Notes under the pieces: model-generated
Seen by the model: the letters and a program-made list of their open reading frames with translations, nothing else
Databases searched by the model: none
Told to the model about the DNA's origin: nothing
Program-made: the position numbers and the translations under genes
Part shown: positions 2,490 to 60,332 of the stretch, in pieces
Layout: every line of letters starts with the position of its first letter
Position numbering within the stretch: position 1 is the stretch's first letter
Source: Thraustochytrium sp. TN22
Lineage: Eukaryota; Sar; Bigyra; Thraustochytrida; Thraustochytriidae
DNA: 64,000 nucleotides
NCBI GenBank assembly: GCA_013306675.1
Contig: JABLUY010000067.1
Location: 1-64,000, forward strand
Reading direction: 5' to 3'

Positions 2490-2496
2490 GCCAGCT

Positions 2497-2614
2497 TGCC
2501 GCAGCTTGCCGCAGCTTTCAAGTTGCCGCAGCTTTCAAGTTGCCGCAGCTTTCAAGTTCGCCGCAGCTTTCAAGTTCGCCGCAGCTTTCAAGTTCGCCGC
2601 AGCTTTCAAGTTCC
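2497..2614. repeat. 17/18-bp tandem repeat encoding NLKAAA
   Basis: About seven copies of (T)TGCCGCAGCTTTCAAG. The left copies are 17 bp and the right copies 18 bp (an added C). On the minus strand the 18-bp units encode N-L-K-A-A-A in frame, while the 17-bp units shift frame. The array lies just upstream of the minus-strand ATG at 2489. Confidence 0.85.
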
Positions 2615-3025
2615 CTTGGTCCTCGCCACTCACCGCGAGCTCGGCTGCCGTCACCGCTGCTCGCGCGGGGTGGCCGCCACGCAGCCAGCGCGTCGTCGGC
2701 CCAGAGTCCGAGCTCAGAGAGAGCTGCGATCGCGGCTGGAGGCTGCCTCTCGAGGCGCGACGCGGACTCGAACCTGAAGTTGAACGTGAACTTGATGGCG
2801 AACTTGAACTTGATGATGACAGTGAATCACAGGTGGCGCGCACTGGGGTGCGCGCGCGCAGTCGTGGGTGACTCGATAGCTTGGCGGCGCCGCGCCGCGG
2901 TGCCGCGGAACAGGCCCGTGGCGAGCTGCTGCAGCATGATGATCATCATCATCGTCGATGCTGGCAGTGCCCGAAGAGGAAACCTGGACCAAGACCCGCG
3001 CGGGCCCGCGCGGCACGGCGCTTCC

Positions 3026-3100
3026 GTGGCGCGGTGCGGTGCGGCGTGGCGTGGCGCGGTGCCGTGCCCTGCCGTGCGGCGCGGTACGGCACGGTCCGGC
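3026..3100 (+). repeat. Period-5 GC array (15 units) directly upstream of a start codon
   Basis: Exactly 75 bp of units such as GCGGT, GCGGC, GTGGC, GCCGT and ACGGC kept in 5-bp register despite substitutions. It ends 8 bp before the ATG at 3109, so it must be 5' UTR or core promoter. Comparable arrays precede many genes in this window. Confidence 0.85.
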
Positions 3101-3108
3101 GAGACAAG

Positions 3109-3840
3109 ATGAAGGGGGAGGAGAGCGTCGCGAGGCTGGCGGAAAGCAAGGCTGCGACCAAGGCGGCAGAGGACTGGTGGGCTACCGTCAAGGTCTGCAT
3201 GCTCGTGTCGTTACCGGCGAGCGTGGCGGCTGTGGTTGTGGCGCTGAGGCAGCTCGTGCAGGGCCCGGCGCTGGTGGATACGCCGGGCTTTGACCCAACG
3301 TCGGACCTCCACGTGCTGGCCACGCTCGCCATGCGGCTCGCGCTTGTCTCCGCCACTGGGACCTTGATTACGCTCGCAATGCAGCAAGCGGCCGCGGGAG
3401 GGTCCGTGCCAGCGTGCAACGCCTGCGGCCGTTCCATCGCGCAGCGTATGCTGCTCACCTTCGTGCTCTTTACCTGCCTCGCTGGTATCGGCCACATTTC
3501 CCTCAACCTACACAGGCCATGGGCCATGCGCTTGTTGCTGAGCTCCGTTGTGCTCATCGGCCATGCCGCGCTCGGCCTGCACGCTTTCGTGCTCGTCCAC
3601 CACTGTCGAAGGAAGCGTTTCTCCAAGGCTTGGCCGTCCAACGCGCCCAGCACGAGAGAGCGGCGCTCGCCGCATGCGCCGGCGCGCCTCACGCTGCAGC
3701 TGGCTCTGGTTGAGGCCTACGTCACCAGCAAGGACGAGGACCCAGACGGTCTCCTCTACTCGCCCTTTGCGCAGCTACAATCACAAGTGCACGAGCAGCA
3801 GCATATTTCTGCGCAGGGCGAAGGTGTCCGCCCTGCCTGA
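3109..3840 (+). CDS. Four-transmembrane protein of unknown function
   Basis: 243 residues from M-K-G-E-E-S-V-A-R-L. This ATG is preferred because all upstream in-frame sequence is translation of the GC array. Four hydrophobic segments are visible, at about residues 28-50, 69-95, 108-130 and 142-165. A short Cys-containing loop (P-A-C-N-A-C-G-R) lies before TM3. After TM4 comes a basic segment (H-H-C-R-R-K-R-F) and a soluble tail ending Q-G-E-G-V-R-P-A. The positive charges after TM4 suggest that the C-terminus is cytosolic. I do not recognise the family. Transcribed in the same direction as the SET-domain gene 370 bp downstream, with its own upstream array. Confidence 0.7.
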   Translation: MKGEESVARLAESKAATKAAEDWWATVKVCMLVSLPASVAAVVVALRQLVQGPALVDTPGFDPTSDLHVLATLAMRLALVSATGTLITLAMQQAAAGGSVPACNACGRSIAQRMLLTFVLFTCLAGIGHISLNLHRPWAMRLLLSSVVLIGHAALGLHAFVLVHHCRRKRFSKAWPSNAPSTRERRSPHAPARLTLQLALVEAYVTSKDEDPDGLLYSPFAQLQSQVHEQQHISAQGEGVRPA

Positions 3841-4012
3841 GCTCGGTGCACCGAGCTCTGTTCCGAGCCGAAGTCGCGGGCGCCATGTAAGATATGAACA
3901 AATGTGAAAACACGGCGTTGTAAACTTGCGACCGACAATCTTGTACTGGTACCGGGTGCGGCCTTTGTATACCAGCCTTATGATAATGTTGAAGTCAAGA
4001 ATGGTTGGCTCT

Positions 4013-4107
4013 CTGCTGTGCTCTGCTGTGCTTTGCTGCGCGGTGCTGTGCTCCGCTGTGCTCTGCTGCACGGTGCTCTGCTATGCTGTGCACTGCTGCG
4101 CTCCGCT
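4013..4107 (+). repeat. Period-5 (NTGCT) array, 19 units
   Basis: Nineteen consecutive 5-mers, mostly CTGCT, GTGCT and CCGCT, in strict register with interspersed GCGCG or GCACG units. Lies 100-200 bp upstream of the SET-domain ATG. Confidence 0.85.
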
Positions 4108-4160
4108 CTCCTCGTCGTTGTCGTGCTGACGACAGCAAAAAGGCAATACTCTGCTCTTGG

Positions 4161-4200
4161 CGGGTCGCGGGTCGCGGCGCGGCGCGGCGCGGCGCAGCGC
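4161..4200 (+). repeat. Period-5 (GGCGC) array next to the SET-domain start
   Basis: Eight 5-mers (CGGGT, CGCGG, GTCGC, then GGCGC repeated) ending 9 bp before the ATG at 4210. It is a second, more GC-rich array behind the NTGCT array. Confidence 0.8.
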
Positions 4201-4209
4201 GCGGGGAGC

Positions 4210-5322
4210 ATGTCGAGCGCGGCGGCGCTCAAGCTGCTGTCGCACGTGCGGCACCACGGCGCGAAGCTGGGGTCCGTGACGGTGCAGGATGTGCCAGGCA
4301 TGGGGCTCGGGTTGGTGGCGACCAAGCGTCTGCGCGCCGGGCGGCCGTTCCTGACGCTGCCGGAGAAGACATGGCGGCCGCTGTCGGCGGACGAGGCGTA
4401 CGTGCAGATGCGCGCCCGCAACTCGGCAATGCTAGACGAGCTGCAGGAGTTCGCAATGGCGCAGGACATCAGCATGCAGGCGCAGCTGCTGCTCATCGGC
4501 TCCGTGTGCTTCGTGGTGCACCTGCTGCGGGAGTTTGCTGACCCGTCCAGCATGGCGGCGCCACACCTGGAGGCCATGCCGAGGTCCGTCACCACGCCGC
4601 TCTTCTGGGATGGCCCGCAGATGGAGCGCCTGCAGGCCTCGCCCCTCGTGCAAAAGATCGCCGAGCGACGAGCGCTCATTGACAGCGTCTTCTCGCACGT
4701 CATCGAGCCGCACGCGCGCCACGAGCCGGATGCCAACCTGACGCCCGCCAACTTTAGTTTTGCCTGGTCGCTCCTGCTCTCGCGCGCCATCTCGGACCTG
4801 CGCTCGCGCATGCCCTTCTCGCTGCCGCCCGTGCTCGACATGATGAACCACTCCGCCGCGCCGCGCGGCCCTGGCATGTGCCAGCACTGGTTCGACCACC
4901 TCAGCCAGAGCTTCATGGTCGCCCCGCTGCTCGATGTTGAGCCGGGCGACCAGGTCTACATCAGCTACGGCGATCTGCCCAACGCCGACCTCCTGCGCCT
5001 CTATGGTTTCACCGTCGAAAACAATCCCAACGACTACATTGACTTTTACGTGTCTGGCCCCAACAGCCCCATGCGTATGCGCTGCATGCACGACGGCACT
5101 ATCGAGTACCCGACCGACGCGCCCCGCGTCGATCATCTCACCATGCAGGCTGCGCTCACGCGTACGCTTGACTCCTACGCGACCACGGTTGCCGACGATC
5201 GCCTCATGCTCACCGAGGTCTCCCGCGACGGTCTCCCCGTTGATGTGCTCAACGCCGTCCGCATCCGCCTCTCCGAGAAGCTCGCTCTCGAGCGCGCCAT
5301 TGCCGATCTGCGCCGCCATTAG
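4210..5322 (+). CDS. SET-domain protein lysine methyltransferase (SETD3/SETD6/LSMT-like)
   Basis: Transfers methyl groups from S-adenosylmethionine to lysine (or histidine in SETD3) of non-histone proteins. 370 residues from M-S-S-A-A-A-L-K-L-L. An N-terminal SET part carries G-M-G-L-G-L-V-A-T-K (about residues 31-40), corresponding to the GxG motif. The long insert typical of the RuBisCO-LSMT/SETD3/SETD6 class is present. The SAM-site motif is D-M-M-N-H-S (about 207-212), and the catalytic-Tyr region is Y-I-S-Y-G-D-L-P-N-A-D-L-L-R-L-Y-G-F (about 248-265). The C-terminal helical part resembles the Rubis-subs-bind domain but is short. Single exon. Substrate unknown. Class assignment is firm, subfamily is inference. 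Confidence 0.85.
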   Translation: MSSAAALKLLSHVRHHGAKLGSVTVQDVPGMGLGLVATKRLRAGRPFLTLPEKTWRPLSADEAYVQMRARNSAMLDELQEFAMAQDISMQAQLLLIGSVCFVVHLLREFADPSSMAAPHLEAMPRSVTTPLFWDGPQMERLQASPLVQKIAERRALIDSVFSHVIEPHARHEPDANLTPANFSFAWSLLLSRAISDLRSRMPFSLPPVLDMMNHSAAPRGPGMCQHWFDHLSQSFMVAPLLDVEPGDQVYISYGDLPNADLLRLYGFTVENNPNDYIDFYVSGPNSPMRMRCMHDGTIEYPTDAPRVDHLTMQAALTRTLDSYATTVADDRLMLTEVSRDGLPVDVLNAVRIRLSEKLALERAIADLRRH

Positions 5323-5533
5323 CCTGGTCGTGCATCATTTCGCGGCAGCTGCGAATCATGGCAACGCGCTGCGAACTTGTGGTAAAAGATGCTTCCTTGA
5401 GAAGTCACGCCTTCCACGGCTTTCCAAAGATAGTAGGTTAGAACTTAGGATCCCTGCGAGCCTTCAGGACTCGAGCCCAAACACAACGTCATCCGTCTCG
5501 CTCCCGAGAGGAGTGTGCTGTACGTGATCGCGG

Positions 5534-5845
5534 GGAACTAGCAGTTAAGCAAATACATTAATCGACCCAGCGTAACTGGCTGCAGATCTCTCTAATAGCT
5601 AGAGGGCTCTAGTAGAGCTTAGCTAGCTAGACTAGCCAGAGCCTCGCCTCTTCGTAGAGCTACTTTTTGACGGACGTTGTGACACGGACTCTGCGAAAGA
5701 ACTAGCAGTAAGCAAATACACTGATCGACCCGGCACACTTGGCTGCAGACCTCTCTCTAGAGCTAGCTAGAGAGCTAGCTACTAGGTAGACTCTAGCCTC
5801 GCCTCTTCGTGGAGCTTCTTTTGACGGAGGTTGTGGCTCGAACCC
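5534..5845. repeat. Imperfect direct duplication, about 145 bp, two copies
   Basis: Copy 1 (about 5534-5680) and copy 2 (about 5698-5845) share AACTAGCAG, AAGCAAATACA, ATCGACCC, TGGCTGCAGA, GCCTCGCCTCTTCGT and TTTGACGGA, in the same order. The central CTAG-rich part is the most diverged. No terminal inverted repeats or coding capacity seen, so it looks like a local segmental duplication. Confidence 0.75.
5753..5774. other. CTAG-type hairpin
   Basis: Arms CTCTCTAG and CTAGAGAG (8 bp) flank AGCTAG. One of several CTAG-rich hairpins in intergenic DNA of this window. Confidence 0.6.
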
Positions 5846-6075
5846 AACTCCATTCTTTCGCCATGAGGACATGGCGCATCAGTCGCCGTAACGGCTTCAA
5901 GCCCAAAGCGCATGCAGTGCCAGTGCGATGCAACATAGTGGCCCGAACACGGTGCAGACCATCGCGCGCGCAACTTGAGCGCGGCGCTTGCTCACGGCGC
6001 TTGCTCAAGGCGCTCGCTCGCGCGCGCTTGCGCTTGCTTGCTTGCGCGCGCGCGCTGCATGGTATCGGCAGCAGC

Positions 6076-9000
6076 ATGGCCGCGGAGCGCGCGCGGCGAC
6101 TACCGGCCATCATCGTGGACAACGATGATGGTGAGGACGGGCCGGAGGACTCGGAGGAGGACGCAGAGTCCCTCGAGGCGCTGGTGGAAGCCAATGACAT
6201 CGTGGCGCCGCTGCGCAAGACCCATGGACGTACCAACGCGAGCAGGTACCTGCGGCGCGACTCGTCGATACGCGCCGACGTGGCGGCACTCTTGACCGCA
6301 GATATGACGGCCTCAGCCAAGGCTCGCGCGGTGCGCGATGACAAGCAACGAAGGCGCGACAGGCGTATCACACGCATGCAGCGCAAGACAAATCGGCTAA
6401 AGGTACAGGAGCTCGTGGAACAAAACTCCTTGCCCTCCCCAAAGAAGCTCAAGGCGATCGAAATGAGGGCCTTCATCGAGGAGCGTCGCGTGCTCTGGGA
6501 CGATCTCAACCCGAACCGCGCCAAGGGCTCAAGCTCGCGCGTAGAGCACCCCGCCGTCGCTCGCTACGCGCTGCAGCCCGTCCCCGCCCAGTGGGATGCT
6601 CGCACGAAGAGCCCAATGTACGTTAGGTGACACGTTGCTCGCTCTGCAGTTCGAAAAAGGCAGGCGCCCACTGACCGACCGCGCGCTCTGACCATTCGCA
6701 CTGCGCAGCTTCTTTGGCCTCTTGGCGCAGCAAAAGGCTAATGACACGTTGTACGTCTCGCACTCGCCGTCGCCGGCTCCAAAGTGTAGCCTTGTACTCA
6801 CGCAGCCGCACGAGGCATGTCTCCGTGCAGCGTTGACGTGGATCTCAAGATCTTCGGGATCGTCTCAGATGACTGGAACGCGCAGCTGCAGGGTGCCGTG
6901 GAGCGCGCCGTCTGGCTCGCGCTGCCCCGGGCCGCTGGCATCCCTCGGAATTCGGTTCGCGTGATCTTCGCAGAAGAGGTGGCCGGCGAGAATCTGCGGC
7001 GCGTCGCCGAAAAGGTCAATCGCCGCGCCGGGCAGGATCCGGCCTTCGGCGCGCACCTCGCGAACCTCGCGCGCGAGGACGGCGGCGTGATGAACGTCCG
7101 GCTCTCCGTCATCACGCCGGCGACGCGCGAAGCGATCGCCAGGGTTGGCCACTTTCGCGTGCCACATGATGCGCCAGGGGAGTCCTTCGCACGTCGCCTC
7201 GTGACGCTGGACATTCCAGAGCTAGAGGTCTCCAAAGCAAGCGACCTGTCGGCGGCCATCGCGGAGGCCATCGCCAGCGGGGCCTTGGCGGCCTCCATGC
7301 GGCGGACGATCAAGTGCAGCAAGGCCTTCTCGCTCGCGCACAACCACATACCAAAGGCGCAAACCGGCTCACAGACGGACGACTACACGCTGGCGGTGGA
7401 CACGCCCCGGCATCGAAAGTCAGACGCGCGCGAGCAGCGCTTCGCCGCGTGCAAGGAGCTTGCGACTCATGTGGCAGAGGCCCCGCTGCTGACGCAGACA
7501 CTGGATCCCTCGCTGGTACGCACCACGCATCCAGTCTTCTTGCACCGCCACACGAAGCACATGCGACCGGATGTGCGACGCACGAACCCAATCTTTTGGG
7601 GCGCCTGGGCGCGACAACAAGTGCACGACCTGGCGCCGAACGGTCCGAACCCCCTGCTCTTTCACACGGCCTTCACATTCGACGACCGCGACTACGTACC
7701 CGCGGATCAGGAGTTACACGGCGTGAGCCGTGCCGAGGCCACGATGGCCGACGCGCGAGTGCAGAACCCAGTGTTTGCTGGCTACGTGCGCTGCAAGGAG
7801 GACTACGACGTCCTGGCACGCGAGGCAGAGGAGCGGTACAAGCAGTCGGAGGCTGCGCAGGCCGATGCGGACGAGGCCTTTGTGCTTTCCATGGCGCGAC
7901 GCACCAAGCGGTCGGAGCGTGCGCGGCGCGACGAGGAGGAGGAGGAGCGCATGCGAAAGTGGGTGGAGGCCACCATCAAGCGCAACCTGCACCCAGCGAC
8001 GCAAGGCTACAAGACGCGCCGTGTGCCTGCAGTGGCCGCGGACGCCGCGCGCCGCGTGCATCCGACCTGCTTCGGCTACGACACCGGGCCGGAGCAGGTT
8101 TTCCTGCCACATAGCGCGACGCAGGTCGTGCATCCTGCCTGCGTCGGGTACGAGCTGGCCGCCCAGGAGCCGCACCTCTTCTCGAACTCCGCGTCCAAGG
8201 TACTCAACCCGATCTTCCATGGGCTCTCTTTGCGCAAGGGCCCGCGCTTCGTGCCGGCGGCGACGGGCAACGACGTCATGGCGAAGCGGCGGCTTTTTCT
8301 GGAGGACCTCACGGCCAATCCGGTCAAGAAGCAGTCGGCGCTCTGCGTGGTTTGCTTCGGGGAAAACAGCACGGGGTGCCCCCGCTGCTGGCAGCCCGGG
8401 GCGTACGAGACCTCGGGCGCCTTGTCGGCTATCGACGACATTGCGTCAAACCTGACCAAGGCCATCGCCGCCAATGCGTTGCTCAAGAAGTCGACGCGGC
8501 GCCACGCCAAGCCCTCGGGCCAAGTCGCTGGCGACTCCGTTGGAGCAGCAGCAGCATCCGAGCCCTCCGGCGAGGCTTCCGAGGCGGGCAGCGCGACCAA
8601 GGACCGCGAGAGCGAGCGCGCCCAGCGCTTCCGCTTTAAGATGGCGGCCAAGGCGGCCCTCCAAGAGACGCTGCGGCTGTTGTCGCCAGAGGATATCGCG
8701 ACGTACCGGCGCACCAAGTGCACCTTCGTCACCATCTACATCAAGAGCTTGCCGACGGGCGAGGTAACGCGCTTGCGCATGGAGGCCAAGCGCACCGTGC
8801 GAGACCTGTACTTTCTCTACCGGACCAACGTGCGCAGCGACGTGGCCCACCTGCCCGGCTTCTGGATTCTCGTGCCCACCTTGCATGGCTTGGTGTGTCT
8901 GGACGACACGCGCCAGACGCACGACGAGATGAACTGCGCCTTTGAGCCCGGCGCGCTGACACTTGAGGACTACGGCATTTGCAAACCGGATAGCGAGGTC

Positions 9001-19527: not shown

Positions 19528-22500
19528 TCAGAAGATGGCCTCCCAGGCAGGCCTAGATGAGGCCCTGGCCGCCGGCGCAGAGCGTGGCTTGAAGGAGTTC
19601 GCTGCCTGAGGCGTGGAAGCGCGCTGGAGCGTGTCGAGCACGCGCGATTGGCCCACGACCTCGAGCACAGAAGCCGGCGCAGGAAGAGCGCGAGCACGCA
19701 GAGCTGGGAGGTCGAGGCTGCGGAAGAACTCGTGCTCCGTGACGCTAGGTGCCGCGGCGCCGCAGGACGCAGCCCCGAGCCGGAGCTCCGGGTCCGGGTG
19801 GAGCAGTGCTCGGACGAGGTCCACAAAGGCGTCGTCGCCGTTGCACGCGTCGTGCAGTTTGGCGAAGAGCGGGCTGTCCGGGTAAGACACGAGGTAGGCA
19901 GCATGCTGGCTACGCAGCGAGGAGACCACCTGCGCCCGGAACGGGAAGGACCCAGTGACGAGCTCAAAGTAGAAGACGCCGAGCGCCCACCAGTCAACGG
20001 CCGTGCCATAGCCCTGGAGAGTCATAATCTCCGGCGCGATGAAGGTGGGCGTGCCGCACAACGTGTAGGTACGCGGGTGCGAGTCGGAGAGCTCCTTGGC
20101 CATGCCAAAGTCCGTGAGGCGCAGGTAGCCGTCGACGCAGAGGATGCAGTTCTCTGGCTTGAGGTCCCGGAACACGACGCGACGCTCGTGCAGGTACTCG
20201 ACCGCCAGCGCGATCTGGCCCGCAAAGAAGCGCATTTCCTCGGTGGACAGCGATTGCGAGGGCCGCGGCTCGATGAGGTCAAAGAGATCTCCGCCCAGAC
20301 CACACTCAAGAAGCAGGTAGACGCTGCGCTCGTCTTGGAAGCTGCGCACGAAGCGCGCGATGAACGGGCAGCCATCGCCCACCTTGGACATGATGACACG
20401 TTCCGCCAGCACGCGCTGCTCCTGGCGGCGCGCCACAATCTTGCGCTTGGACAGTTGCTTGAGCGCAAAGACATGGTTCGTCTCGCGGTCGCGCACCAGG
20501 GTGACCGAGCCGAAGGCGCCGGCACCCAGGCTCTGCAGGCGCTCCAGGCTGTCGAGCGAGAGCACCAACCCGGTCGCACGCTTGCGCGGCGAGACGGCCT
20601 TGCCGGTCGACTCGCGCGCTTGGCCCGGGGTGCGCGGCTTGGCGCCGCCCGCCTCGGTACGCGGCGTACGCCAGCCCTGCGCCGTTGCGCACTGCTCGCG
20701 CGAGGTCGGCGTGCCGTTGCGGTGTGGCGAGGCGCACGCCGGCAACGAGCGCCCACCCACGGCCGTGGCCGCCGTCTGCACGGGCGAAAGCGTGCGCAGA
20801 AAGGCCAGCTGCTTTTGCGTCTTGAGTCCGAACCCGAGCCCGCGTGGCGCCCTCGATACGGCCAGCCGCTCCTGGCCGGGCTCGCTCTCGCTCTCGCTCT
20901 CGTCGCTCGCGAGGCGCCGCAATTCGCGCATGCCGCCATTGTCCTCGTGCGCCTTGGCCTCGTCGACGTCGCCATTGTCGACGTCTTCATCGTCATCGTC
21001 ATCGTCATCGTCGTGGTCGTCGTCCAGGGCGCCGTCCGACTCGTCGTCCCCACCGTGGAATGACGACGTTGGCCGCAAAAGCGGGGCCATGTTCATGGGT
21101 ACCACGGGCACCGAGGCCGCGCGCAGTCCCGAGGCGCGTGCCGCGAGCCGTGGCGCCTCGGAGCGCCAATCAGCGCGGCTGCCGTGTGCAGGGCTCCCGG
21201 CGGAGTGCGGAGCCTGGGGCGAGCTGTCCATTGGGCCGCGCCACGCGCCAAACGCCTCGTTAATGCCGGCCGACCCGGGCGAGGACACTGCCAACGCGGT
21301 GGTCACCATTGGCGCCGCCGCCGCCGACGTTGTCACCGCTCCAGACGTGTCGCGGCTCACCCTGGGCACCGGCAGGCTCTGCAGGCGCGGGCGGGGGCGC
21401 TTTTGGCCGGCCGAGGCGCCCAGCGCCAGGCGGCACCGGTACATTGCGTTCACGGAGCTGAGAGCGCTCTCTGCCGGCACGTCGTCCAGCTCCTCACCCC
21501 CGTCCTCGTCCTTGTCAGTGTCCGGGTCGCTCACCGAGCGCGCGCGTAGCGCGTACAGCGAGGGCAGCGAATTTGGGCTGCAGGGCTCGTCGTCCAGAAC
21601 AAGAAGCTCACCGCACTTGTCGTCCGGGTCGCGCTCCTTGCCTTCTCCATCAAAGTCTCCCCCAGCCAAGGTCGTCATGTCGCTGATGGTGCCCATGGTT
21701 TCGCGACTGGGGGAGCGCGGGCGCATGTCGGCGTCCCCGTCCACGTCCACCGTGGCGGGGTGTGTCGCGTCGCCGGCGTCGCGACGCGGCGAGCAGCTGC
21801 TCATTGTGCGGGACGACTCGTCTGAGGACTGGCGCACGTAGCGTGGACGCTTGCGGAGCTTGTTGAAGATGCCAGCGCCGGAGGAGCTCAGGAGTGGCGA
21901 GGAGATGCTGGTGAGGCTCGCGCTGGGGCGCGCGTCGCCCGGCACCGGCGCTTCTGGAACCACGAGCAAGCAGGTGCGCGGCTCGAGTGTCACGCTGAGT
22001 GCGTCGGCTGCCAGCAGGCGACGCACAAGGTAGCCTTGACCAACGCTCAGGCGGCCGAGCGCGCGCGTGAGCTCCCGCCCCCCCTCCTCAGTGTCGTCCT
22101 CCGCGTCGCGCACCTCGACAGAGCCCTGAAGCACGACAAATCGCACGTCCACGGAGGGCGCCTGCAGGCGGCGCGTGAGTTGGTGCACCGGGAAGCTGTC
22201 CCCGGACGGGTAGCTCACGGTGAAGCCTTGGGTCGCGACCTGGTCCTCGACGACGGTCACAGGGAGGCTGGAATACGGGTGCAGATTGAGCAGGACCTGC
22301 ACGAAGAAGTGGTGGCGCATCGCCGTGCGCAGGCGTGCGAGCGGCGCCAGGCGACCATACGGAATCACGTAGACTTCGGTGCCGTCCGCGGCGACCACCA
22401 CGTCCGCCGCGCAGCGGTCCTGGCTGTCAACGCAGAAGCCGTCCTCGCCAAAATACTCGCCAGGCGCACGCTCCCAAAGCACCTCGCCGTGTTGCTTGAG

Positions 22501-23286
22501 CTCCAGCAAGCTCGACACGCCGCCATCGCGCAGCACGCCCCACACCTCGCCGGAGCGCACCAAGAAGAGGCGGTCGGCCGGCGCGCCGTGGCGCAGGAGC
22601 ACCTCGCCGCGCGCCGCGCGCACGAGCTCCGCGCCGAGTTCGAGTTGTGCGCGCTCCGCCTCGGACAGTTGCCGCAGAACCGGGTGGCGCGCGATGAGGT
22701 CGCGGCACGAGCCCGGCCTGGCGGCGCTCATGCTGCGGGCCGCTTCGAAGGCCGCGCGCGTCAGCCTCCAGAGCCGCGGCGCGTCCGTGCAGTCCACCTC
22801 CAGCGTCCAGCTGCTCGGGCAGCCGCACACGAGCGCGTGCGTGCCGAAGGCGCCGGCATTTTCAAAATGCACGCGCTCCACGTCGGACCCTTGCCGCCGC
22901 AGTTGCAGCTGCAACTGCAGCTGCAGCTGCGGCTGCTGCTCCTGCTGGCGCCACTCCTCCTCGTCCGCGCCGCCGTCGTCTCCCTCGTACGTCTCCCGTC
23001 CTCTCCGCATCGTCACGCAGTGCTCGCCATGGTCGTCCTTACCGTACGCGCCGCGCCGCAGCACGGCCCTTCCTCGCGTGAGGAAATACGCCGCGTCGCC
23101 GCGTCGGCCCTGCTCGAAGACCACGGCGCCGTCCGCGTCTCGCGCGCGCGGCAGGTCGTCCGCGTCCACGAGCTGCAGCGCCTCCACGCACGCGTCCACC
23201 TCGTCCTCCCGCAGATCCGCGCGCTCCTCGCCGTCCACCGTCAGCGCGCGCAGCGCCGCGGCGAGCGCCGCGCGCTCCCCGGCCAT
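19528..23286 (-). CDS. PKG-architecture AGC protein kinase with degenerate cyclic-nucleotide-binding domains
   Basis: 1252 residues. N-terminal half: two or three CNBD-like beta-roll segments (about 45-185, 195-325, and a weaker third about 340-450), for example A-R-G-E-V-L-L-R-H-G and Y-F-G-E-D-G-F-C-V-D. A 450-residue disordered linker with a poly-Asp block near residue 760 follows. The kinase domain (about 905-1170) has Gly-loop L-G-A-G-A-F-G-S-V, Lys in F-A-L-K-Q-L-S-K, catalytic loop F-R-D-L-K-P-E-N, D-F-G, and activation loop T-L-C-G-T-P-T-F-I-A-P-E-I. All catalytic residues are present, and an AGC-type tail follows. cGMP-dependent kinases have this order, but the canonical FGE...RTA phosphate-binding cassette is not intact in any CNBD. 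A large Gln/Leu-rich insertion sits in the first. Activation by cGMP is therefore doubtful. Confidence 0.85.
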   Translation of the reverse strand: MAGERAALAAALRALTVDGEERADLREDEVDACVEALQLVDADDLPRARDADGAVVFEQGRRGDAAYFLTRGRAVLRRGAYGKDDHGEHCVTMRRGRETYEGDDGGADEEEWRQQEQQPQLQLQLQLQLRRQGSDVERVHFENAGAFGTHALVCGCPSSWTLEVDCTDAPRLWRLTRAAFEAARSMSAARPGSCRDLIARHPVLRQLSEAERAQLELGAELVRAARGEVLLRHGAPADRLFLVRSGEVWGVLRDGGVSSLLELKQHGEVLWERAPGEYFGEDGFCVDSQDRCAADVVVAADGTEVYVIPYGRLAPLARLRTAMRHHFFVQVLLNLHPYSSLPVTVVEDQVATQGFTVSYPSGDSFPVHQLTRRLQAPSVDVRFVVLQGSVEVRDAEDDTEEGGRELTRALGRLSVGQGYLVRRLLAADALSVTLEPRTCLLVVPEAPVPGDARPSASLTSISSPLLSSSGAGIFNKLRKRPRYVRQSSDESSRTMSSCSPRRDAGDATHPATVDVDGDADMRPRSPSRETMGTISDMTTLAGGDFDGEGKERDPDDKCGELLVLDDEPCSPNSLPSLYALRARSVSDPDTDKDEDGGEELDDVPAESALSSVNAMYRCRLALGASAGQKRPRPRLQSLPVPRVSRDTSGAVTTSAAAAPMVTTALAVSSPGSAGINEAFGAWRGPMDSSPQAPHSAGSPAHGSRADWRSEAPRLAARASGLRAASVPVVPMNMAPLLRPTSSFHGGDDESDGALDDDHDDDDDDDDEDVDNGDVDEAKAHEDNGGMRELRRLASDESESESEPGQERLAVSRAPRGLGFGLKTQKQLAFLRTLSPVQTAATAVGGRSLPACASPHRNGTPTSREQCATAQGWRTPRTEAGGAKPRTPGQARESTGKAVSPRKRATGLVLSLDSLERLQSLGAGAFGSVTLVRDRETNHVFALKQLSKRKIVARRQEQRVLAERVIMSKVGDGCPFIARFVRSFQDERSVYLLLECGLGGDLFDLIEPRPSQSLSTEEMRFFAGQIALAVEYLHERRVVFRDLKPENCILCVDGYLRLTDFGMAKELSDSHPRTYTLCGTPTFIAPEIMTLQGYGTAVDWWALGVFYFELVTGSFPFRAQVVSSLRSQHAAYLVSYPDSPLFAKLHDACNGDDAFVDLVRALLHPDPELRLGAASCGAAAPSVTEHEFFRSLDLPALRARALPAPASVLEVVGQSRVLDTLQRASTPQAANSFKPRSAPAARASSRPAWEAIF

Positions 23287-52526: not shown

Positions 52527-55500
52527 TCACCTGTTTGCGCTTGAGGGAGACATGCCAACGTCAACGCGGCCCTCTTCGGCCGTGCGGCCCTCCACGCTTT
52601 GGAGGCCAAGCACGGGGATAGCCTGGATGACGGAAGCAGCTGGTGCGCGCGTATAAAAGAGGGACTCTTGCGCGTCCTCGTAGGTCATGCTGCTCCCACG
52701 CTGGATGTTGGACGACCAGTTCTGCTTCCGTACGCCACGAAAGACGGTGGCACGGCGGTCCGGATTCACGTTTTCGGCCACAGCCTTCGCGATCTCCTCG
52801 CTCCTTTCCGAAAGCTGGCGCGTCAGGCGCCGCTGTGATTCCTTGCGCGCCTCGGTCCGAAAAGCGCCCGGCGACATGGGCGCCACCCAGCTGACGGCTT
52901 CCTCTAGGTCGTTGGCATCCTCGCCCTCCTCCTTCTCAGCAATAGCCTCGTCGCTGGTCTCCTCGCGGGTGACCGAGTTCCGCGAGTCTCGCGAGCCGCG
53001 CGACGTGCTGAGGCTCGCTCTCGCACTTACAGTTGTGCTCTCGTCCTCGGCGAAGGCGCTGAGGCGCATACCTCTGCCCGCCATGCCGTGAGCTCGTCGA
53101 AAGGAGAACTCCGAAGACTGGGCGTCCCGCATAATGTCCATGCGTGACGCCTTGTGGGACAGGAGCGTATCGTCATTGAGCTGCGCGCGGAGAAAGGTGG
53201 AGCGCTTGCCGTCAGGCCGCCGTGCGTCGCGAAGGGTGGTTGTCTTGACGTTGCCCAGCACGTTGGCAATGTGCTTGGCTGAGAAGCGGCCGAGCGGGGT
53301 TTGCCCGCTCCCGGCAATCTCGGCCACCTGGCGCTGGAGCTCCTTGGTCTGCGCGATGGTTTTGCGCTCCGGATGGACGAGCTCCGCAAAGATGCCAATC
53401 TCACGGTGCTCCGGGAACTCAATCATAATGCGCTCCAGCTCCTCCTTGGAGATGAAGACCAGCTCGCAGTCCTCCACACAACGCACGGTCATCATGCGCT
53501 CGCCGCTCAGCGAGTAAAGACACTCGCCGCCAAAGTGGTGTCCGGAGCGCAGGCGGTAGGAACCCTTGCTGCGAAGGCTCATGTTGGAAGGGGGCGCAAT
53601 GTACACGGCACGTGAGGAGGAGGAGCTGGTGTTCTTGTTCTTGCTGCTGCCGTTGTTGTCCGTGCCGGCAGTGACATTGTTGAGGTTGGCGGTGGCGGTG
53701 GCGGTGGAGGCATCGGTACGGGCGAGCTCCGTGGAGGGAACAACCTCTACCTCACCCTTTTTGATAAAATAGATCTCGTGGCCAATCTCCCCGGCACGAA
53801 AAACGTACTCACCAGCGCTCATGATCTGCGCTTGTAGCTTGCGCGCGATGTGGCGCTGCACGTGGATGTGGCACTTGCGCAGGCCGCGGACCTTGTTGAT
53901 AATATCTTGATGAATGCAAATGGCGAGCTCCAGTTGCAGCGGTAGGGGAAGGTCCTGGATGACCTCGTGCATGTTGACGCCCTCAAAGTGCTCCCAGTGG
54001 TTGGTGAAGTGGTTGACAATCTCCTGCTGCAGGTCACCCGGCAGCTCGCGGAATTCCATAAACTCGATGAGCTTCCGCAGACGGCTCTTGAAGGAGATGG
54101 AGCCGCGGGAGTCCCAGTGCAGAAAAACCACCGCCACAGAACCAATGAGCGCCGCAAAGGTACAAGCCCCTAGCACCACGACGGCGAGCTCGTGCACTGT
54201 CTCTAGAAGTGTGTACGGGCGCATGTCGCCGTAGCCGACACTTGACATCGTGGTCACGGTGAAGTAGATGGCGCGAAGGTAAACGAACCACGGCGTGAGG
54301 TCCTCGTTGAAGACATTGTGCTTGCCGGTGACCGGGTCGAAGGTGGCAAGACCGTCCGCGATGGCCCAGGTCTTGTGCAAGTCCGATTCCACGAAGCGGT
54401 GCACCATGAACCAAGAGCAGGCCGCCCAGTGGTTGAGCAGCAGGATACCCATGAAGAGGAAGAAGACCGACATGACGCTCGAGTTGATGCGCGGAAAGGA
54501 CTCATGGATGTACTTGTCCAGCAACCGTGAGTACATATTGATGCGGACAAGGCGCACCATATGAATGAAGCGCACGCTGGAGAGCATGACGACGTGGGAC
54601 GAGTGTTCTGACCCTTCAATCGAATCGGTCAGGATATGAATGAGCACGAAAAAGTCGACGGGGAGCGAGGCCACCAGATCGTAGGCCAGCCATGTGGCAC
54701 GATAGGTTTGTGCAATCGTGGTCTGGTTGGTGATGACCTTGCCGTACTTGTTGACTGCGAAGCGACGATAGCGCATGTAGATGTCCACGATGAAAAAGAC
54801 GTCAATGGCGTAGTCAAAGGCGAACCACGCCCACATGCCTGCAGGCATGTGGTGGTCCACAATCGGCACTCGGTCCTCCACGAAAAAGGCGCAGCGGAAG
54901 GGAATGCTGATGGCAAAGTACACGGTGAAGATGAGCGACAGCATGTTCCAAACGCGGCAGAGCGTGTCGTTGGGCTTGTAGATGCGCGCCTTGCGCAGTG
55001 CCAGCGCAGCGCGCCGCCGCTGGATACGCGCGTCTGTGAGCATGTGGTGCGCCAGTTTGGCCACCGGCTTCCCGTCGATTCCGTACTTCTTGTTTGCTCC
55101 GTTCGGAGCCGTGCGCGCGCTGCCGCCGCCCGTAGCGGCCGCCAGCGCGCGGTAGAACGTCGTGCCGATGTTACTGCCGCGGGACACGAGGCTACCCCTC
55201 GAAACGAGCGAGCCACGCGAGCCTGCAGAGTTGGGTGACGCCGGCCCGGCGCTGGTGCTGCCGCGGCGCAGAAAGGATGGCTTGCGCGTGAGCATGCGGC
55301 GACCAAAGTCGATGAGCGAGCCGGCTGTGAAGGAGTTCCGCTTCTGCTGCATGAAGTCGAGCATCTTGGAGCCCGCAATGATGGTCTCCATGTTGGTGCG
55401 CAGATTGTCGTTGCGCAACTGATTGCTCTCGCGCAATTCGGAAACAATCTCGAACATGAGGTCGCTCTGGTGCGGGTAGCGAAGCAACACCTCGTCCAGG

Positions 55501-58500
55501 TCTTCGCGGTTCAACGAGTACAGCTCGGTGAAATCCAGCGCGCGCACGGAGCAACTGCGCCGCTCGTTAAAGAAGACGGCTGTCTCGCCAAAGTAAGCGC
55601 CAGACTCGAGCGTTGCAAGCACGATGATCTCCTCCTCGCCGATTTTCTGCTCCATGGCCACCAAGCTGGCGCGCTGCGTGGCGTTCGCGCCACTTCGCAG
55701 CGAGGAGAGCGACGCCTGTCGGCGCGGTGCGATGGGCGCCAAGGGGCCCGACTCGATGCGGATCTCAGTGGAAGACTTGCGCGGCTCGCGGAGGACCGAG
55801 CTAGCGCGCATCGGGGTAACCGGCTCAATCACACTGCTCGCTCGGTGCCCGCTGCGCCAGTTGCCCCGGAAGGAGACCATCTGCACGATGCCCTGCTCGA
55901 TAAAGTACATCTCCGTGCCAACGTCGCCCTCGTAGATGATAAAGTCCTGTGGCGAGTAGACCTCCGTCTTGAGCTTGGCCGCGATACCCTTGGCGAGCGC
56001 CGTGTCGCAGTTCGCAAAGAAGGGCGTCTGCACCACGAAACGCAGCTTGAGGAAGTTTGACACCTCCGCACGGAGCGTCGTGGGCATTTGGTCCACGAGG
56101 CTTGCCTGTACCGCGTCCTTCTCCGTCTCCCACAGGTATTCGAGGTAGTTGCGCGTGCGCTGCTGCAGCGTGTCCGGAATGCGGTACATGTACAGGAAGC
56201 GCTCAAAAACGTCCATCTTCTCACGGTACTTGGCCGCGGCGCCCTCCAGGTTGGCCACTAGGTTTGCAATGCTGCCAATGATCGCCGCGTTGATGGTCAC
56301 GCCGATAATGATCATGAACACCACATAGAGAGTGCCCGGGACGTCGACTGGCACGGTGTCGCCGATCACGACGACCACGAGCGTTGGCAGCGCCCAGTTC
56401 ATGGCGCGCAGGTACTGGTGGCTGAGAGGACCGCCGTCCAGCGGCAGCAGGCCCATCTCCATCTGGTTTTGTATCCACGTCGTGTCAAACTTGCAGTGCG
56501 CCTCGTATGTCGCGCCGCACGTCAGGTCCGACGCCTCGCGGTCCTCCGTCTCAAAGAATGAATCCAACGGGCAGCTGTCTGGGCTGTAGCGCACCACGCC
56601 GGGCGTGCTTGTGCCGGCCGCCGTCTCCTGTGCGGCAAGCGCGGAGATGCAGGCCTCCAGCTCCTCGCCGGTGCTCTGCTGGTAGTTGGCAATCGCGTAG
56701 AAGAAACAGCCGGTCCAATGGGAGATACCAATCACCGCCACAACGAGTGTGAGCAGCCGGTACAGCGCCGTGTATTCGCGGAAGCTAGACATGCTAAAGA
56801 GTGTGTCCAGATTCGCCTTGAGCTTGGGGGTGCGGATCACGAGAACGAGCTTGGGCACCCGCAGGCAGGCCATGACGATTGCCAGCGTAGTCGTGTCTAC
56901 GCCCATGATGACGGGCACCAATGCGAAGATGTCGACTGGCAAAAGCGAGATGAGATCGCGCCGCAGCACGCCACTGCGCAGGTAGTTGCGGCGGATATCC
57001 TCCGGGTCGGTGAAGATCTGGCCGCCTCGAACGAAGCCAAGTACGCGCCAGCGACAGAAGAAGTCCGCGACGAGAAAGACGTCGAGGAGATAGTCCACCG
57101 CGAAGAGCGTGAGCCCCGCATTGAGAGCAAGGCGCACGGGGATGAGCACGAAATTATACAGGATGGCGCACAGGACTGCGAGGTCCCACGTTCGGCGCAG
57201 CGCCGACTCCGGGTGGCGCCAGGAGGACTCAGGAATGCTCTTGCGCTCGTCGTACTCGGAGCTGGTGACGCTGTTGAGCTTGGCGTGCATTCGCATATTC
57301 TCCACGACCGCGGCATTCTTGAGGCGCTTCTCCTCAAGAGTTGCACGCAGACGTGCGATGACGAGCTCGCGCTGCAGGGGGAACTCCTTGGTGACGCGGT
57401 CGAAGTCCTCCTTGTTGAGCACGAAGCAGTCACAGTAGCCGATGGCGATCACATTCGCTGTGCGCTTCTCCAGACCCAGCAGGGAGCCTTCCCCAAAGTA
57501 GTCGCCCGGCGTAAGGATTGCGTAGGTCATCTTGCCGTCCGGAGAGGTAATGCGCGTGGCACCCTTCTCCAGCAGATACATGTCCTGGCCCAGCTCGCCC
57601 GCCATGACGATGTGGTCGCCGGGCAAAAACACGGAGGGCTGCAGCACGCTGAGGAGGTGGCGCAGGAGCTCCTGGTCGACGCCCTCGAGGAAGGTGATGT
57701 TACGCATGATGGCGCCGTTGATGTACTCTTGCACCTCCATGCGCAGCGAGGACGGGAGGTCGCTCAGGATGTAGTCCTCGTCGACGCCGCGCTGTCGCGA
57801 CCAGAGGTAGTCATAGTAGCGCATGATGCGTACCCGCAGGGGCCGCGGGAAGCGCTTCACGGCCATGTACTGCGTGAGGACGGCCAGCTTGTTTTGGAAC
57901 TCTGCACGCGCTGTGTCGAGGCTCGCGATGAGCGCCGCCATGGCGCCCACGACGGCCGGGTAACCGAGGCCGCAGATGAAAGTGATGAAGGCCACATACG
58001 CCGTCTCAAGAGTGTTGTACGGCACCAGGTCGCCGTAGCCCACCGTTGTCATGTCTACCAGCACGAAATAGATGGCACGCAGGTAGGTGATGCCGTCCTT
58101 GCGGTGATCGATGCTGGCCCAGTTCTCGCTGTCCATGCAGATCCAATCATAGTTCGTGAGCGCACAGCGGTCCTCCGTGCCGCGCGCCCCAAGCTCGTCA
58201 TGCGTGTGACCCGCCAGGTGCTGGGTGGCGAGCGACATGACCATCCAGCCGCAGCCCACCAGATGCACGCACCACAAGACGGCGAAGAATATCTTGATGA
58301 TGCGGTGCAGGCCGTTGGAAATGGTGATGCGCCGCGCCGCCATGTAGTTTTGCGCCGTGTCGTAGTGCGACAATAGGTAGCCGATACGCAGCAGCTTGGG
58401 CACGCGCAGCATCGGCAAGGCGCTGCGCTGCGCGAAAGCCAGCACATCGAGCGGGAGACAAATGAGAATGTCCATGCGCCACGAGTCCCGATTCTTGTAG

Positions 58501-60332
58501 TTGGCAAAAATGTAGGAGCGGTCGTGAATCACGATGCCCTCGTGCACGTAGCCGAAGAAACCCGCGCGAAATATGACGTCCGTCACGAAGAGGGCGTCCA
58601 GGAACCAGTCCAGCACGTAGTCCTTCGGATCGACCGCGCCCGAGAGCGAAAACGTCTGCGTGGCCAGCCTGTACGGCACGATCATGGCAGTGTAGGAGAT
58701 GCCTAGGAAGTTGATATTGTTCCACACCTCCCGGAAGCGAGAACGCGGCGCGAAGATATCGCGCCAGCCGCGCGAGCTGGGCGGTTGGTGGTCGAGACCG
58801 AAGAACTTCTTGACCTTGGCTTCTCGCTTGGCCGCCTTCTCCGCCTCGTCGCGGATGTCGTTGAACTCGTCCTCCTCGAGCGACTCCGACAAGATGTCCT
58901 CGAAGAGCTCCTTCTTGAGGAAGAAGAACTCGCAGTAGCTTTTGGCGCGGATCGAGTTCTCGAAGGTCCCAGGAAAGAAGAGCGAGCTCTCGCCCACGTA
59001 GCTGCCGAGCTTGCCGCTAAGCTGCTGCAGCACTTGGCCCGTGGCCGGCGACACGACCTCGGCTTCACCCCTGCGAAGCCAGTAACAGCCCGGCATGTTC
59101 TGTCCCTTGCGCGCCACGTAGTCTCCCGGCGAGACGATGACCTGCTCCAGCGCGACGCAAATGGCGTTAATGACCGGGTCGCGCAGCTTGCGCAGAAAGC
59201 CGACCTGGGTCACCAAATCCTTGGACCGCAGGCCGGCCACCTGCAGGCGCAGCGTGATGGGCAACTCGCGCAAGAAGGCTGCCTCGCTCACGCCCTTGAG
59301 GCTGGTCCACATGTACGTGTAGTAGGCGCGGATTCGGTCGCGCAGGTCGGTGGACAGGTGGCGGTACGACATGTACTTGTTCATGTTGTCCATCTTCGTG
59401 TGGAAGGCGTCCTCATCCGCATCCAGATTGGCAACCATGTTGGTTAGGTTTCCAATGACCATGCATGTGAGCGTCATGCCGAGGTACATGGTCATGAGCG
59501 TGAAGAAGGTCTCCGGGCCGGAGGTCGCCTCGGGGGTAATATCACCCAGGCCCACAGTGACCATCGTGATCATGGCCCAATAGATGCTGCGCACGTACAC
59601 GTGGCCCGTCGTCACGCCCTCAGACAGCATCACCTGGCCGTCCACCAGCTCGATGAGGCCGTCGGAGGACGCCCAGCTCGGCCGCCCCTGGGCCGTTGTG
59701 CTCACGCCTACGGCGAAGAAGCCGCACGCAGACCAGTGGGCGGCAAAGAAGAAGACTGCCCAGAGCAGAATCATCCGTCGCAGGCCAGCGTTGACGATGA
59801 TCCTCCTCCGCTCCAGCACGAGGAAAATCACGTTCGACTGCTCCATGAGCCGCATCAGGCGCACTGCCTTGATGAGCCGCAATGGCGTGGGGTCCGCCAT
59901 ATCTGTGGCGTTGAAGACCATGACGTCCAGCGGCAGCACGCACACGACGTCTGCGGCGAAGTACACGTATCGCCACAGTCGTCGCCTCGCGCGCTCCTGG
60001 TGGGTCATGCGCTCCTCGCGCTTGCGATCGTGCGAGATGCTCTGCATGATGGCCACCTCTGGCATGACGATGGAACTCAATCGCGGGTTGAACCTTCGCT
60101 GGAAAATCCACCGGCGAACAAAGATGTCCAGGAACACGAGCACGTCTGAGAGCACGTCACCCGCGAGGAACAGCAGCAAAACCCCTTCGGTGCCGTACCC
60201 GGGCGAGAACGCCATGCGGAACGGCACCATGAAGCAGTTCCATGCCAGCGACAGCAGCTGAAGGCTTTCCCATGCTGGTCTCGTCGGCACCACGCGTCTC
60301 AGCGCGGCGCGCGCCTTGCGCACCGCACCCAT
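52527..60332 (-). CDS. Single-chain four-repeat cyclic-nucleotide-gated K+-channel-like protein
   Basis: 2601 residues in one uninterrupted frame; an in-frame TAG lies four codons upstream of the ATG at 60332. It contains four tandem copies of a 6-TM voltage-sensor/pore unit followed by a C-linker and CNBD, equivalent to a whole tetramer. Approximate limits: I 15-510, II 525-1010, III 1030-1640, IV 1785-2310, then a disordered tail. Pore motifs: I T-V-G-L-G-D-I-T-P (about 261), II T-V-G-Y-G-D-L-V-P (about 766), III V-V-I-G-D-T-V-P (about 1323), IV S-V-G-Y-G-D-M-R-P (about 2031). CNBD cassettes: I Y-V-G-E-S-S-L-F-F without the Arg; II Y-F-G-E-G-S-L-L-G-L-E-K-R-T-A; III Y-F-G-E-T-A-V-F-F-N-E-R-R-S-C; IV H-F-G-G-E-C-L-Y, no clear Arg. 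CNBD III has an insertion of about 80 residues, and CNBD IV has an Asn/Ser-rich one of about 45. The architecture matches the CNGK/tetraKCNG channels known from sea-urchin sperm. Ion selectivity and ligand are inferred. Confidence 0.92.
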   Translation of the reverse strand: MGAVRKARAALRRVVPTRPAWESLQLLSLAWNCFMVPFRMAFSPGYGTEGVLLLFLAGDVLSDVLVFLDIFVRRWIFQRRFNPRLSSIVMPEVAIMQSISHDRKREERMTHQERARRRLWRYVYFAADVVCVLPLDVMVFNATDMADPTPLRLIKAVRLMRLMEQSNVIFLVLERRRIIVNAGLRRMILLWAVFFFAAHWSACGFFAVGVSTTAQGRPSWASSDGLIELVDGQVMLSEGVTTGHVYVRSIYWAMITMVTVGLGDITPEATSGPETFFTLMTMYLGMTLTCMVIGNLTNMVANLDADEDAFHTKMDNMNKYMSYRHLSTDLRDRIRAYYTYMWTSLKGVSEAAFLRELPITLRLQVAGLRSKDLVTQVGFLRKLRDPVINAICVALEQVIVSPGDYVARKGQNMPGCYWLRRGEAEVVSPATGQVLQQLSGKLGSYVGESSLFFPGTFENSIRAKSYCEFFFLKKELFEDILSESLEEDEFNDIRDEAEKAAKREAKVKKFFGLDHQPPSSRGWRDIFAPRSRFREVWNNINFLGISYTAMIVPYRLATQTFSLSGAVDPKDYVLDWFLDALFVTDVIFRAGFFGYVHEGIVIHDRSYIFANYKNRDSWRMDILICLPLDVLAFAQRSALPMLRVPKLLRIGYLLSHYDTAQNYMAARRITISNGLHRIIKIFFAVLWCVHLVGCGWMVMSLATQHLAGHTHDELGARGTEDRCALTNYDWICMDSENWASIDHRKDGITYLRAIYFVLVDMTTVGYGDLVPYNTLETAYVAFITFICGLGYPAVVGAMAALIASLDTARAEFQNKLAVLTQYMAVKRFPRPLRVRIMRYYDYLWSRQRGVDEDYILSDLPSSLRMEVQEYINGAIMRNITFLEGVDQELLRHLLSVLQPSVFLPGDHIVMAGELGQDMYLLEKGATRITSPDGKMTYAILTPGDYFGEGSLLGLEKRTANVIAIGYCDCFVLNKEDFDRVTKEFPLQRELVIARLRATLEEKRLKNAAVVENMRMHAKLNSVTSSEYDERKSIPESSWRHPESALRRTWDLAVLCAILYNFVLIPVRLALNAGLTLFAVDYLLDVFLVADFFCRWRVLGFVRGGQIFTDPEDIRRNYLRSGVLRRDLISLLPVDIFALVPVIMGVDTTTLAIVMACLRVPKLVLVIRTPKLKANLDTLFSMSSFREYTALYRLLTLVVAVIGISHWTGCFFYAIANYQQSTGEELEACISALAAQETAAGTSTPGVVRYSPDSCPLDSFFETEDREASDLTCGATYEAHCKFDTTWIQNQMEMGLLPLDGGPLSHQYLRAMNWALPTLVVVVIGDTVPVDVPGTLYVVFMIIIGVTINAAIIGSIANLVANLEGAAAKYREKMDVFERFLYMYRIPDTLQQRTRNYLEYLWETEKDAVQASLVDQMPTTLRAEVSNFLKLRFVVQTPFFANCDTALAKGIAAKLKTEVYSPQDFIIYEGDVGTEMYFIEQGIVQMVSFRGNWRSGHRASSVIEPVTPMRASSVLREPRKSSTEIRIESGPLAPIAPRRQASLSSLRSGANATQRASLVAMEQKIGEEEIIVLATLESGAYFGETAVFFNERRSCSVRALDFTELYSLNREDLDEVLLRYPHQSDLMFEIVSELRESNQLRNDNLRTNMETIIAGSKMLDFMQQKRNSFTAGSLIDFGRRMLTRKPSFLRRGSTSAGPASPNSAGSRGSLVSRGSLVSRGSNIGTTFYRALAAATGGGSARTAPNGANKKYGIDGKPVAKLAHHMLTDARIQRRRAALALRKARIYKPNDTLCRVWNMLSLIFTVYFAISIPFRCAFFVEDRVPIVDHHMPAGMWAWFAFDYAIDVFFIVDIYMRYRRFAVNKYGKVITNQTTIAQTYRATWLAYDLVASLPVDFFVLIHILTDSIEGSEHSSHVVMLSSVRFIHMVRLVRINMYSRLLDKYIHESFPRINSSVMSVFFLFMGILLLNHWAACSWFMVHRFVESDLHKTWAIADGLATFDPVTGKHNVFNEDLTPWFVYLRAIYFTVTTMSSVGYGDMRPYTLLETVHELAVVVLGACTFAALIGSVAVVFLHWDSRGSISFKSRLRKLIEFMEFRELPGDLQQEIVNHFTNHWEHFEGVNMHEVIQDLPLPLQLELAICIHQDIINKVRGLRKCHIHVQRHIARKLQAQIMSAGEYVFRAGEIGHEIYFIKKGEVEVVPSTELARTDASTATATANLNNVTAGTDNNGSSKNKNTSSSSSRAVYIAPPSNMSLRSKGSYRLRSGHHFGGECLYSLSGERMMTVRCVEDCELVFISKEELERIMIEFPEHREIGIFAELVHPERKTIAQTKELQRQVAEIAGSGQTPLGRFSAKHIANVLGNVKTTTLRDARRPDGKRSTFLRAQLNDDTLLSHKASRMDIMRDAQSSEFSFRRAHGMAGRGMRLSAFAEDESTTVSARASLSTSRGSRDSRNSVTREETSDEAIAEKEEGEDANDLEEAVSWVAPMSPGAFRTEARKESQRRLTRQLSERSEEIAKAVAENVNPDRRATVFRGVRKQNWSSNIQRGSSMTYEDAQESLFYTRAPAASVIQAIPVLGLQSVEGRTAEEGRVDVGMSPSSANR

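Follow-up and report, generated by a model that had tools for sequence, protein, structure and literature searches.

A putative one-chain, four-repeat CNBD channel and its multi-repeat relatives in a GC-rich protist genome

Channels of the SthK, CNGA, HCN, and KCNH types are built from four separate chains, and CNGK (tetraKCNG), known from choanoflagellates and from the sperm of animals, carries four six-transmembrane (6TM) units on one chain, each with a cyclic nucleotide-binding domain (CNBD). Four-domain Cav and Nav channels, a separate branch of the superfamily, share the 24-TM one-chain layout with the protein described here and, unlike it, have no CNBD. According to the accessible text of a 2020 survey, four-repeat CNGK occurs in metazoans and choanoflagellates, oomycetes and dinoflagellates have two-repeat tandem CNBD channels, and no tandem channel was identified for labyrinthulomycetes; within CNGK, repeat R1 is described as clustering with R3 and R2 with R4 (PMC7576140). 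In the accessible part of another paper, CNGK pores carry GYG or GFG, the sea urchin channel is gated by a single cGMP at its third CNBD, and the zebrafish channel is gated by pH instead (PMC4749565). The two-repeat channels are tandem, like the gene analyzed here, and fall within SAR, the group that includes thraustochytrids; they differ from this gene in having two repeats rather than four. Among the matches listed from the open-licence literature, we found no later report of a four-repeat CNBD channel in labyrinthulomycetes; the layout itself was already known, and its presence in this protist appears to be new.

The window, the whole stretch of 64,000 nucleotides that was analyzed (bases 1-64000 of contig C417, which has 149,778 bases), carries at 52-60 kb a minus-strand frame of 2601 codons, with its ATG at 60332 and a TGA that ends at 52527. 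Given the base composition of the stretch, the chance of 2601 stop-free codons is ~2e-34; the frame has no N letters, and the five other frames over the same stretch contain 21-140 stops, with many on the plus strand. When the frame was divided into 18 blocks, of which 17 had 150 codons and the final one was shorter, third-position G+C stayed within 0.67-0.89, was lowest in that final block, and did not dip at repeat borders. On the protein, Pfam detected Ion_trans (PF00520) in four stretches, Ion_trans_2 in three, and cNMP_binding (PF00027) in six rather than four, because inserts split the CNBDs of repeats 3 and 4 in the alignment; nine NCBIfam families matched, all below cut-off and mostly CRP-like CNBD and K-channel pieces, and Rfam at gathering thresholds gave no match within the 64-kb window. 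Frame reading and Pfam together bear out the original prediction, made without naming a strand, of four tandem 6TM + CNBD units in a single frame, and the gene is intron-free as read solely from that frame (Table 1). It is extremely improbable that this frame, although real, gives a product that is cut or transcribed into separate subunits: the linker between repeats 3 and 4, ~130 residues by the hand-set bounds, would suit such a product, but neither a stop nor a fall in third-position G+C occurs at the repeat borders.

Table 1. Coordinates of the four-repeat gene in the window and properties of related channel loci in the same genome (repeat bounds are hand-set)
Feature	Position	Strand	Residues	Description
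Whole ORF (P0001)	52527..60332	-	2601 aa	Four-repeat CNBD channel; frame, Pfam, coding bias
Repeat 1	58803..60332	-	aa 1-510	6TM; filter TVGLGD (59541-59558); degenerate CNBD VGE...FEN, without phosphate-column Arg
Repeat 2	57243..58802	-	aa 511-1030	6TM; filter TVGYGD (58029-58046); canonical CNBD
Phosphate-binding cassette of repeat 2	57453..57497	-	aa 946-960	FGEGSLLGLEKRTAN
Repeat 3	55413..57242	-	aa 1031-1640	6TM; odd filter VVVIGD (56358-56375); CNBD FGE...RSC; long low-confidence insert
Linker R3-R4	55023..55412	-	aa 1641-1770	~130 residues; hand-set bounds
Repeat 4	53343..55022	-	aa 1771-2330	6TM; filter SVGYGD (54225-54242); degenerate CNBD FGG...RMM; Ser/Asn-rich insert
C-terminal tail	52530..53342	-	aa 2331-2601	Without Pfam family at cut-off
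C401			2468 aa	Four-pore frame; filters GYG, GYG, GFG, GYG
C445			2823 aa	Four-pore frame; filters GYG, GYG, GFG, GFG
C111			943 + 1746 aa	Four-pore, two frames, changeover inside repeat 2; filters GYG, GFG, GYG, GFG
C310 (L013)			1714 aa	Two-repeat CNBD channel; Pfam detects one CNBD
Single-repeat loci (n = 12)				C98, C112, C273, C162, C68, C114, C29, C158, C46, C67, C227, C242

The assembly comprises 37.9 Mb in 453 contigs, with a G+C content of 67% in the window and 61-68% at 28 examined loci. A genome this small and open-framed would be out of keeping with a dinoflagellate. The genome also contains a 3044-aa frame for a PfaA-type omega-3 polyunsaturated fatty acid (PUFA) synthase (2539.7 bits against a cut-off of 1010.1), with a 2083-aa opposite-strand frame beside it that gave weaker PfaA matches. 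In the accessible part of a review, a table of 20 eukaryotes with such a PUFA synthase lists 19 that bear thraustochytrid names and one dinoflagellate (PMC9702510). The PUFA synthase and the small, open-framed genome indicated that the host is most likely a thraustochytrid. The labyrinthulomycete primer site LABY-A had 0 matches in the genome, but so did a universal 18S stretch, and the missing primer site therefore carries no information on the host. Other thraustochytrid genomes are given, in the accessible parts of their descriptions, as 43-57% G+C, below the present genome (PMC10101102, PMC12258536, PMC7073664, PMC5854782); for Thraustochytrium sp. 26185, similarly consulted sources give a genome of 38.60 Mb (PMC12258536) and a transcript G+C of 62.65% (PMC12472049). 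A four-repeat frame at this base composition agrees with the earlier suggestion that a four-subunit chain from a GC-rich protist would widen the reported range of the layout.

In the alignment, the filters of R1 to R4 read GLG, GYG, VIG, and GYG, of which R2 and R4 are K+-type, R1 is near K+-type, and R3 has a Val for the first Gly of GYG. K+ selectivity of the channel is likely; with Val in the R3 filter, it may be relaxed, and the same replacement could instead represent a loss of conduction. The latter would fit a regulatory pseudo-channel with one broken filter and little or no conduction, and four single-repeat genes of this genome (C29, C68, C114, and C242) likewise have no canonical filter, with the alignment unsure there. 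We consider a pseudo-channel very unlikely, given that two filters are GYG, one is GLG, and the frame is intact for 2601 codons. Along the aligned S4, Arg and Lys residues numbered 4, 3, 5, and 4 in R1 to R4.

The Glu and Arg of the phosphate-binding cassette hold the ribose and phosphate of the ligand. At the aligned cassette columns (F-G-E and R-T-A), R2 reads FGE/RTA (with its Arg at aa 957), letters identical to those of SthK, HCN4, and CNGA2, and the other repeats read as given in Table 1. By this alignment, the full cassette is kept in R2 only and nearly so in R3, and R1 and R4 are degenerate. The Thr that follows the cassette Arg is common to SthK, HCN4, and CNGA2, and so cAMP and cGMP are indistinguishable as ligands from the sequence.

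Comparison with solved structures placed all four repeats in the CNBD-channel superfamily, each unit having a 6TM core, a re-entrant pore, a C-linker, and a CNBD by Pfam and PDB sequence matches and, for R2 and R3, by fold matches as well. In single-repeat searches of the PDB set, the best matches were SthK for R1 (E 9.2e-48), HCN4 for R3 (E 5.9e-43, with CNGA2 also among the best), and KCNH2 for R4 (E 1.9e-40), and R2 was the top-scoring stretch in the whole-protein search (SthK, E 6.4e-59). Separate affinities of the repeats to unrelated single-subunit channels, combined with assembly breaks between them, had been named beforehand as evidence against the one-chain reading; the best PDB matches did differ among the repeats, but the frame is unbroken and neither of the trees described below (30-row and 34-row) supported these affinities. 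R3, whose pore deviates most, was nevertheless modeled as a complete CNG subunit (pLDDT 76.1; best described by a Foldseek match to a CNGA1/B1 chain at E 6.8e-25), and R2 matched the SthK fold over 406 residues at 3.0 Å. The AF2 model of the R1-R2 tandem was poor (pLDDT 67.9, pTM 0.50) and too weak for neighbor packing or a four-fold arrangement; in the solved-chain comparison the R2 half was covered and the R1 half absent, among the matches listed. Identity among the repeats is 24-28%, and with SthK, over its aligned parts (352-354 columns), it is 28.5-32%; pairwise scores and identities gave no ordering of the repeats. Compared with SthK, CNGA, HCN, and KCNH, they align over the transmembrane core, C-linker, and CNBD, with fold matches for R3 and R2, and differ in lying on one chain as specialized repeats.

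A whole-protein search of the genome loci, in which 18 of 94 candidates were scored, gave a best non-self match of only 32% identity, so that no close copy of the protein was seen. The genome nevertheless holds three further four-pore genes, C401, C445, and C111, and the two-repeat gene C310, which has the layout reported from oomycetes and dinoflagellates (Table 1). Pfam found three cNMP_binding stretches in C401, two in C445, and one in C111 (none in its first frame), and Ion_trans in four, three, and 2 + 1 stretches, respectively; as judged from their sequences, the CNBDs of these three proteins are eroded. Of the 16 repeats in the four four-pore proteins, 2 had both cassette marks (xGE and Arg), and these belong to the window protein. 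None of the 12 CNBD positions of C401, C445, and C111 had both; C445_R4, with an Arg in the aligned column and no FGE, was scored as lacking. Neither repeat of C310 has both marks, the cassette Arg being absent from both CNBDs, and 9 of the 12 single-repeat loci have them, the misses being C162, C158 (split over two frames), and C46 (FGD + Arg). The single-repeat status holds for the fetched stretches, as short fetches and introns could hide further repeats. The difference in cassette retention (2/16 versus 9/12; Fisher p 0.0015) is descriptive, since the repeats are related and the alignment of eroded CNBDs is unsure. The lack of both marks from all 12 CNBDs of C401, C445, and C111 indicated that the four-pore layout can outlast ligand binding. 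With a two-repeat gene and four four-pore genes side by side in this genome, tandem forms are seen both to arise and to be maintained in the lineage.

These findings bear on an alternative for the window protein itself, namely that it is gated by voltage or otherwise, with all of its CNBDs structural and no cyclic nucleotide involved, as in KCNH or zebrafish CNGK. Such gating would agree with the loss of the two marks in C401, C445, and C111 and in R1 and R4 of the window protein, and with the pH gating described for the zebrafish channel in the accessible text (PMC4749565). We regard it as unlikely, because the FGE...RTA letters of R2 match those of SthK, HCN4, and CNGA2.

The history of the repeats was analyzed with one tree under LG+F+R4 (30 rows, 422 columns) and another under LG+C20 (34 rows, 447 columns). 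The repeats of C445 and C111 paired position by position, with bootstrap values under LG+C20 of 79, 93, 99, and 96 for R1 to R4 and under LG+F+R4 of 97, 98, and 97 for R2 to R4, R1 being unpaired; the tree program flagged R1 and R2 as places where long branches meet. From this pairing, C445 and C111 very probably descend from a single four-repeat gene. The two repeats of C310 were sisters (96 under LG+F+R4, 99/92 under LG+C20), with the single-repeat C158 next to them (95/96), which suggested a separate two-repeat event. In the best-pairing test, which ranked 24 orders, 1-2-3-4 came out on top for every pairing of C401, C445, and C111 with one another, and for the window protein against these three it ranked 9, 11, and 3, respectively. 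Under a richer model, the 12 repeats of C401, C445, and C111 came together at 72/95, not starred.

Among the topologies compared, that in which each of the four genes built its repeats alone was rejected, with p-AU 0.007 in an incomplete search and 0.0085 with the finished search. Position-by-position orthology of the window gene with C401, C445, and C111 gave p-AU 0.098 (0.131 on rerun, with the search finished); a clade of the window repeats gave 0.475 (0.485 on rerun; p 0.169 under the richer model), and a clade of all 16 repeats gave 0.475 (0.479 on rerun; p 0.391 under the richer model); none of these three was rejected. On these values, phylogeny neither unites the window gene with C401, C445, and C111 nor separates it from them. 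A single-protein query for a bacterial comparison set found no relative. It is possible, though we would put it at somewhat less than an even chance, that several independent fusions took place in one thraustochytrid lineage (the window gene; C401, C445, and C111, one of them RGS-ended; and C310), all apart from animal CNGK and followed by a loss of ligand binding in most CNBDs. Several one-chain genes in one genome would allow a test of the repeated origin of one-chain channels.

The original prediction had proposed a copy of CNGK. The two share a single polypeptide with four 6TM-CNBD repeats, and in the sea urchin channel, as in the window protein, the CNBDs are of unequal competence; this part of the proposal stands. 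The filters depart from it, CNGK being known here by description: its pores carry GYG or GFG, whereas R1 has GLG and R3 has VIG. Moreover, the working CNBD is the third in sea urchin CNGK and the canonical one is the second here, and the CNGK hosts belong to a different eukaryotic supergroup if the present host is a thraustochytrid. On the basis of the filters we did not assign the gene to CNGK, and from the filters and the reported distribution of CNGK, the one-chain layout here probably evolved independently of the animal channel. Alternatively, the gene could be an ortholog of CNGK, acquired by transfer or passed down from an early eukaryote, in which two repeats lost strict GYG. This would account for the shared layout, and the CNGK-like pairing of R1 with R3 and R2 with R4 was not rejected (p-AU 0.509, a value that the incomplete search can only have lowered), other topologies fitting equally well. 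We judge orthology quite unlikely in view of the GLG and VIG filters, repeats that are no closer to one another than to SthK, and reports of CNGK from animals and choanoflagellates only, as far as the accessible texts go (PMC7576140, PMC4749565).

With moderate confidence, we favor a cation channel of the CNBD superfamily in which a single chain forms a pseudo-tetramer; it would be gated through one or two competent CNBDs and probably arose apart from animal CNGK. By homology to tetrameric SthK, CNG, HCN, and KCNH, the four repeats would surround one central pore; cAMP or cGMP would bind the intact R2 CNBD, and perhaps that of R3; binding would pull on the C-linkers, whose ring would open the pore; and the CNBDs of R1 and R4 would serve as a structural frame. 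Ligand control would then be asymmetric, as in sea urchin CNGK. A flagellar role, raised in the original prediction along with chemosensory use, might be considered by analogy only. Four-repeat CNBD channels were previously tied to animals and choanoflagellates, and four four-pore genes are present here in one protist genome; as natural concatemers with CNBDs from canonical to degenerate, they would permit a direct test of the number of working CNBDs, and of perfect filter repeats, that a channel needs.

Signaling genes were also found. Strong G-alpha matches (163-357 bits) occur in 12 frames of the genome, which also has 21 cyclase matches; the highest-ranking cyclase frame (1289 aa; PF00211, E 2.3e-101, three stretches) is on contig C417. 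We counted the presence of cyclase and G-alpha genes, with one cyclase gene on the window contig, in favor of the channel reading given above. That cyclase frame is at ~98.3-102.2 kb (L035, C417:97800-102200), ~40 kb from the window channel. Within the window, a 1252-aa minus-strand frame at 19528-23286 carries a CNBD and a protein kinase domain and is PKG-like.

At its C-terminal end, the C111 channel has an RGS domain (PF00615), detected at E 3.1e-13 in the whole frame and 7.4e-15 alone, at 50.6 bits against a cut-off of 23.9, and located at aa 1614-1727 of the minus-strand frame 1949-7186 (L017), which it shares with pores 2 to 4. Against the PDB set, this region matched RGS18 (E 2.5e-10). 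The C445 tail gave an RGS match below cut-off (14.7 bits versus 23.9) over nearly the full RGS length, and the tails of C401 and the window protein had no Pfam family at cut-off. The open-licence literature, among the matches listed, yielded no earlier report of an RGS-channel fusion. The RGS end suggests a physical link of the C111 channel to heterotrimeric G proteins, and if several independent fusions did occur, C111 would be a channel directly tied to G-protein signaling.

Large CNBD or multi-pore frames in this genome are not uniformly CNBD channels. The frames C87, C205, C432, and C375 have four Ion_trans stretches and no CNBD match, and C337, C4, C110, and C232 showed no channel filter pattern in the frames examined for one. 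A channel identity for all giant multi-CNBD frames was rejected by C418, which is of the SulP-STAS-CNBD type: at ~76.7-89.2 kb (L010, L011), it encodes adjoining proteins of 2102 and 1888 aa that combine a SulP sulfate transporter and STAS with two or three CNBDs. Altogether, the 37.9-Mb genome gave 118 CNBD matches, several of them lying two or three in a row within one frame (e.g., C222:509130-510116, C453:144431-145471, and C38:68641-69705), and the genome is a rich cyclic-nucleotide toolkit. Two CNBD frames of equal score, both 1528 aa, lie on opposite strands of C37 (C37:7318-7608, minus, and C37:92872-93162, plus) and perhaps reflect an inverted duplication or an assembly effect.
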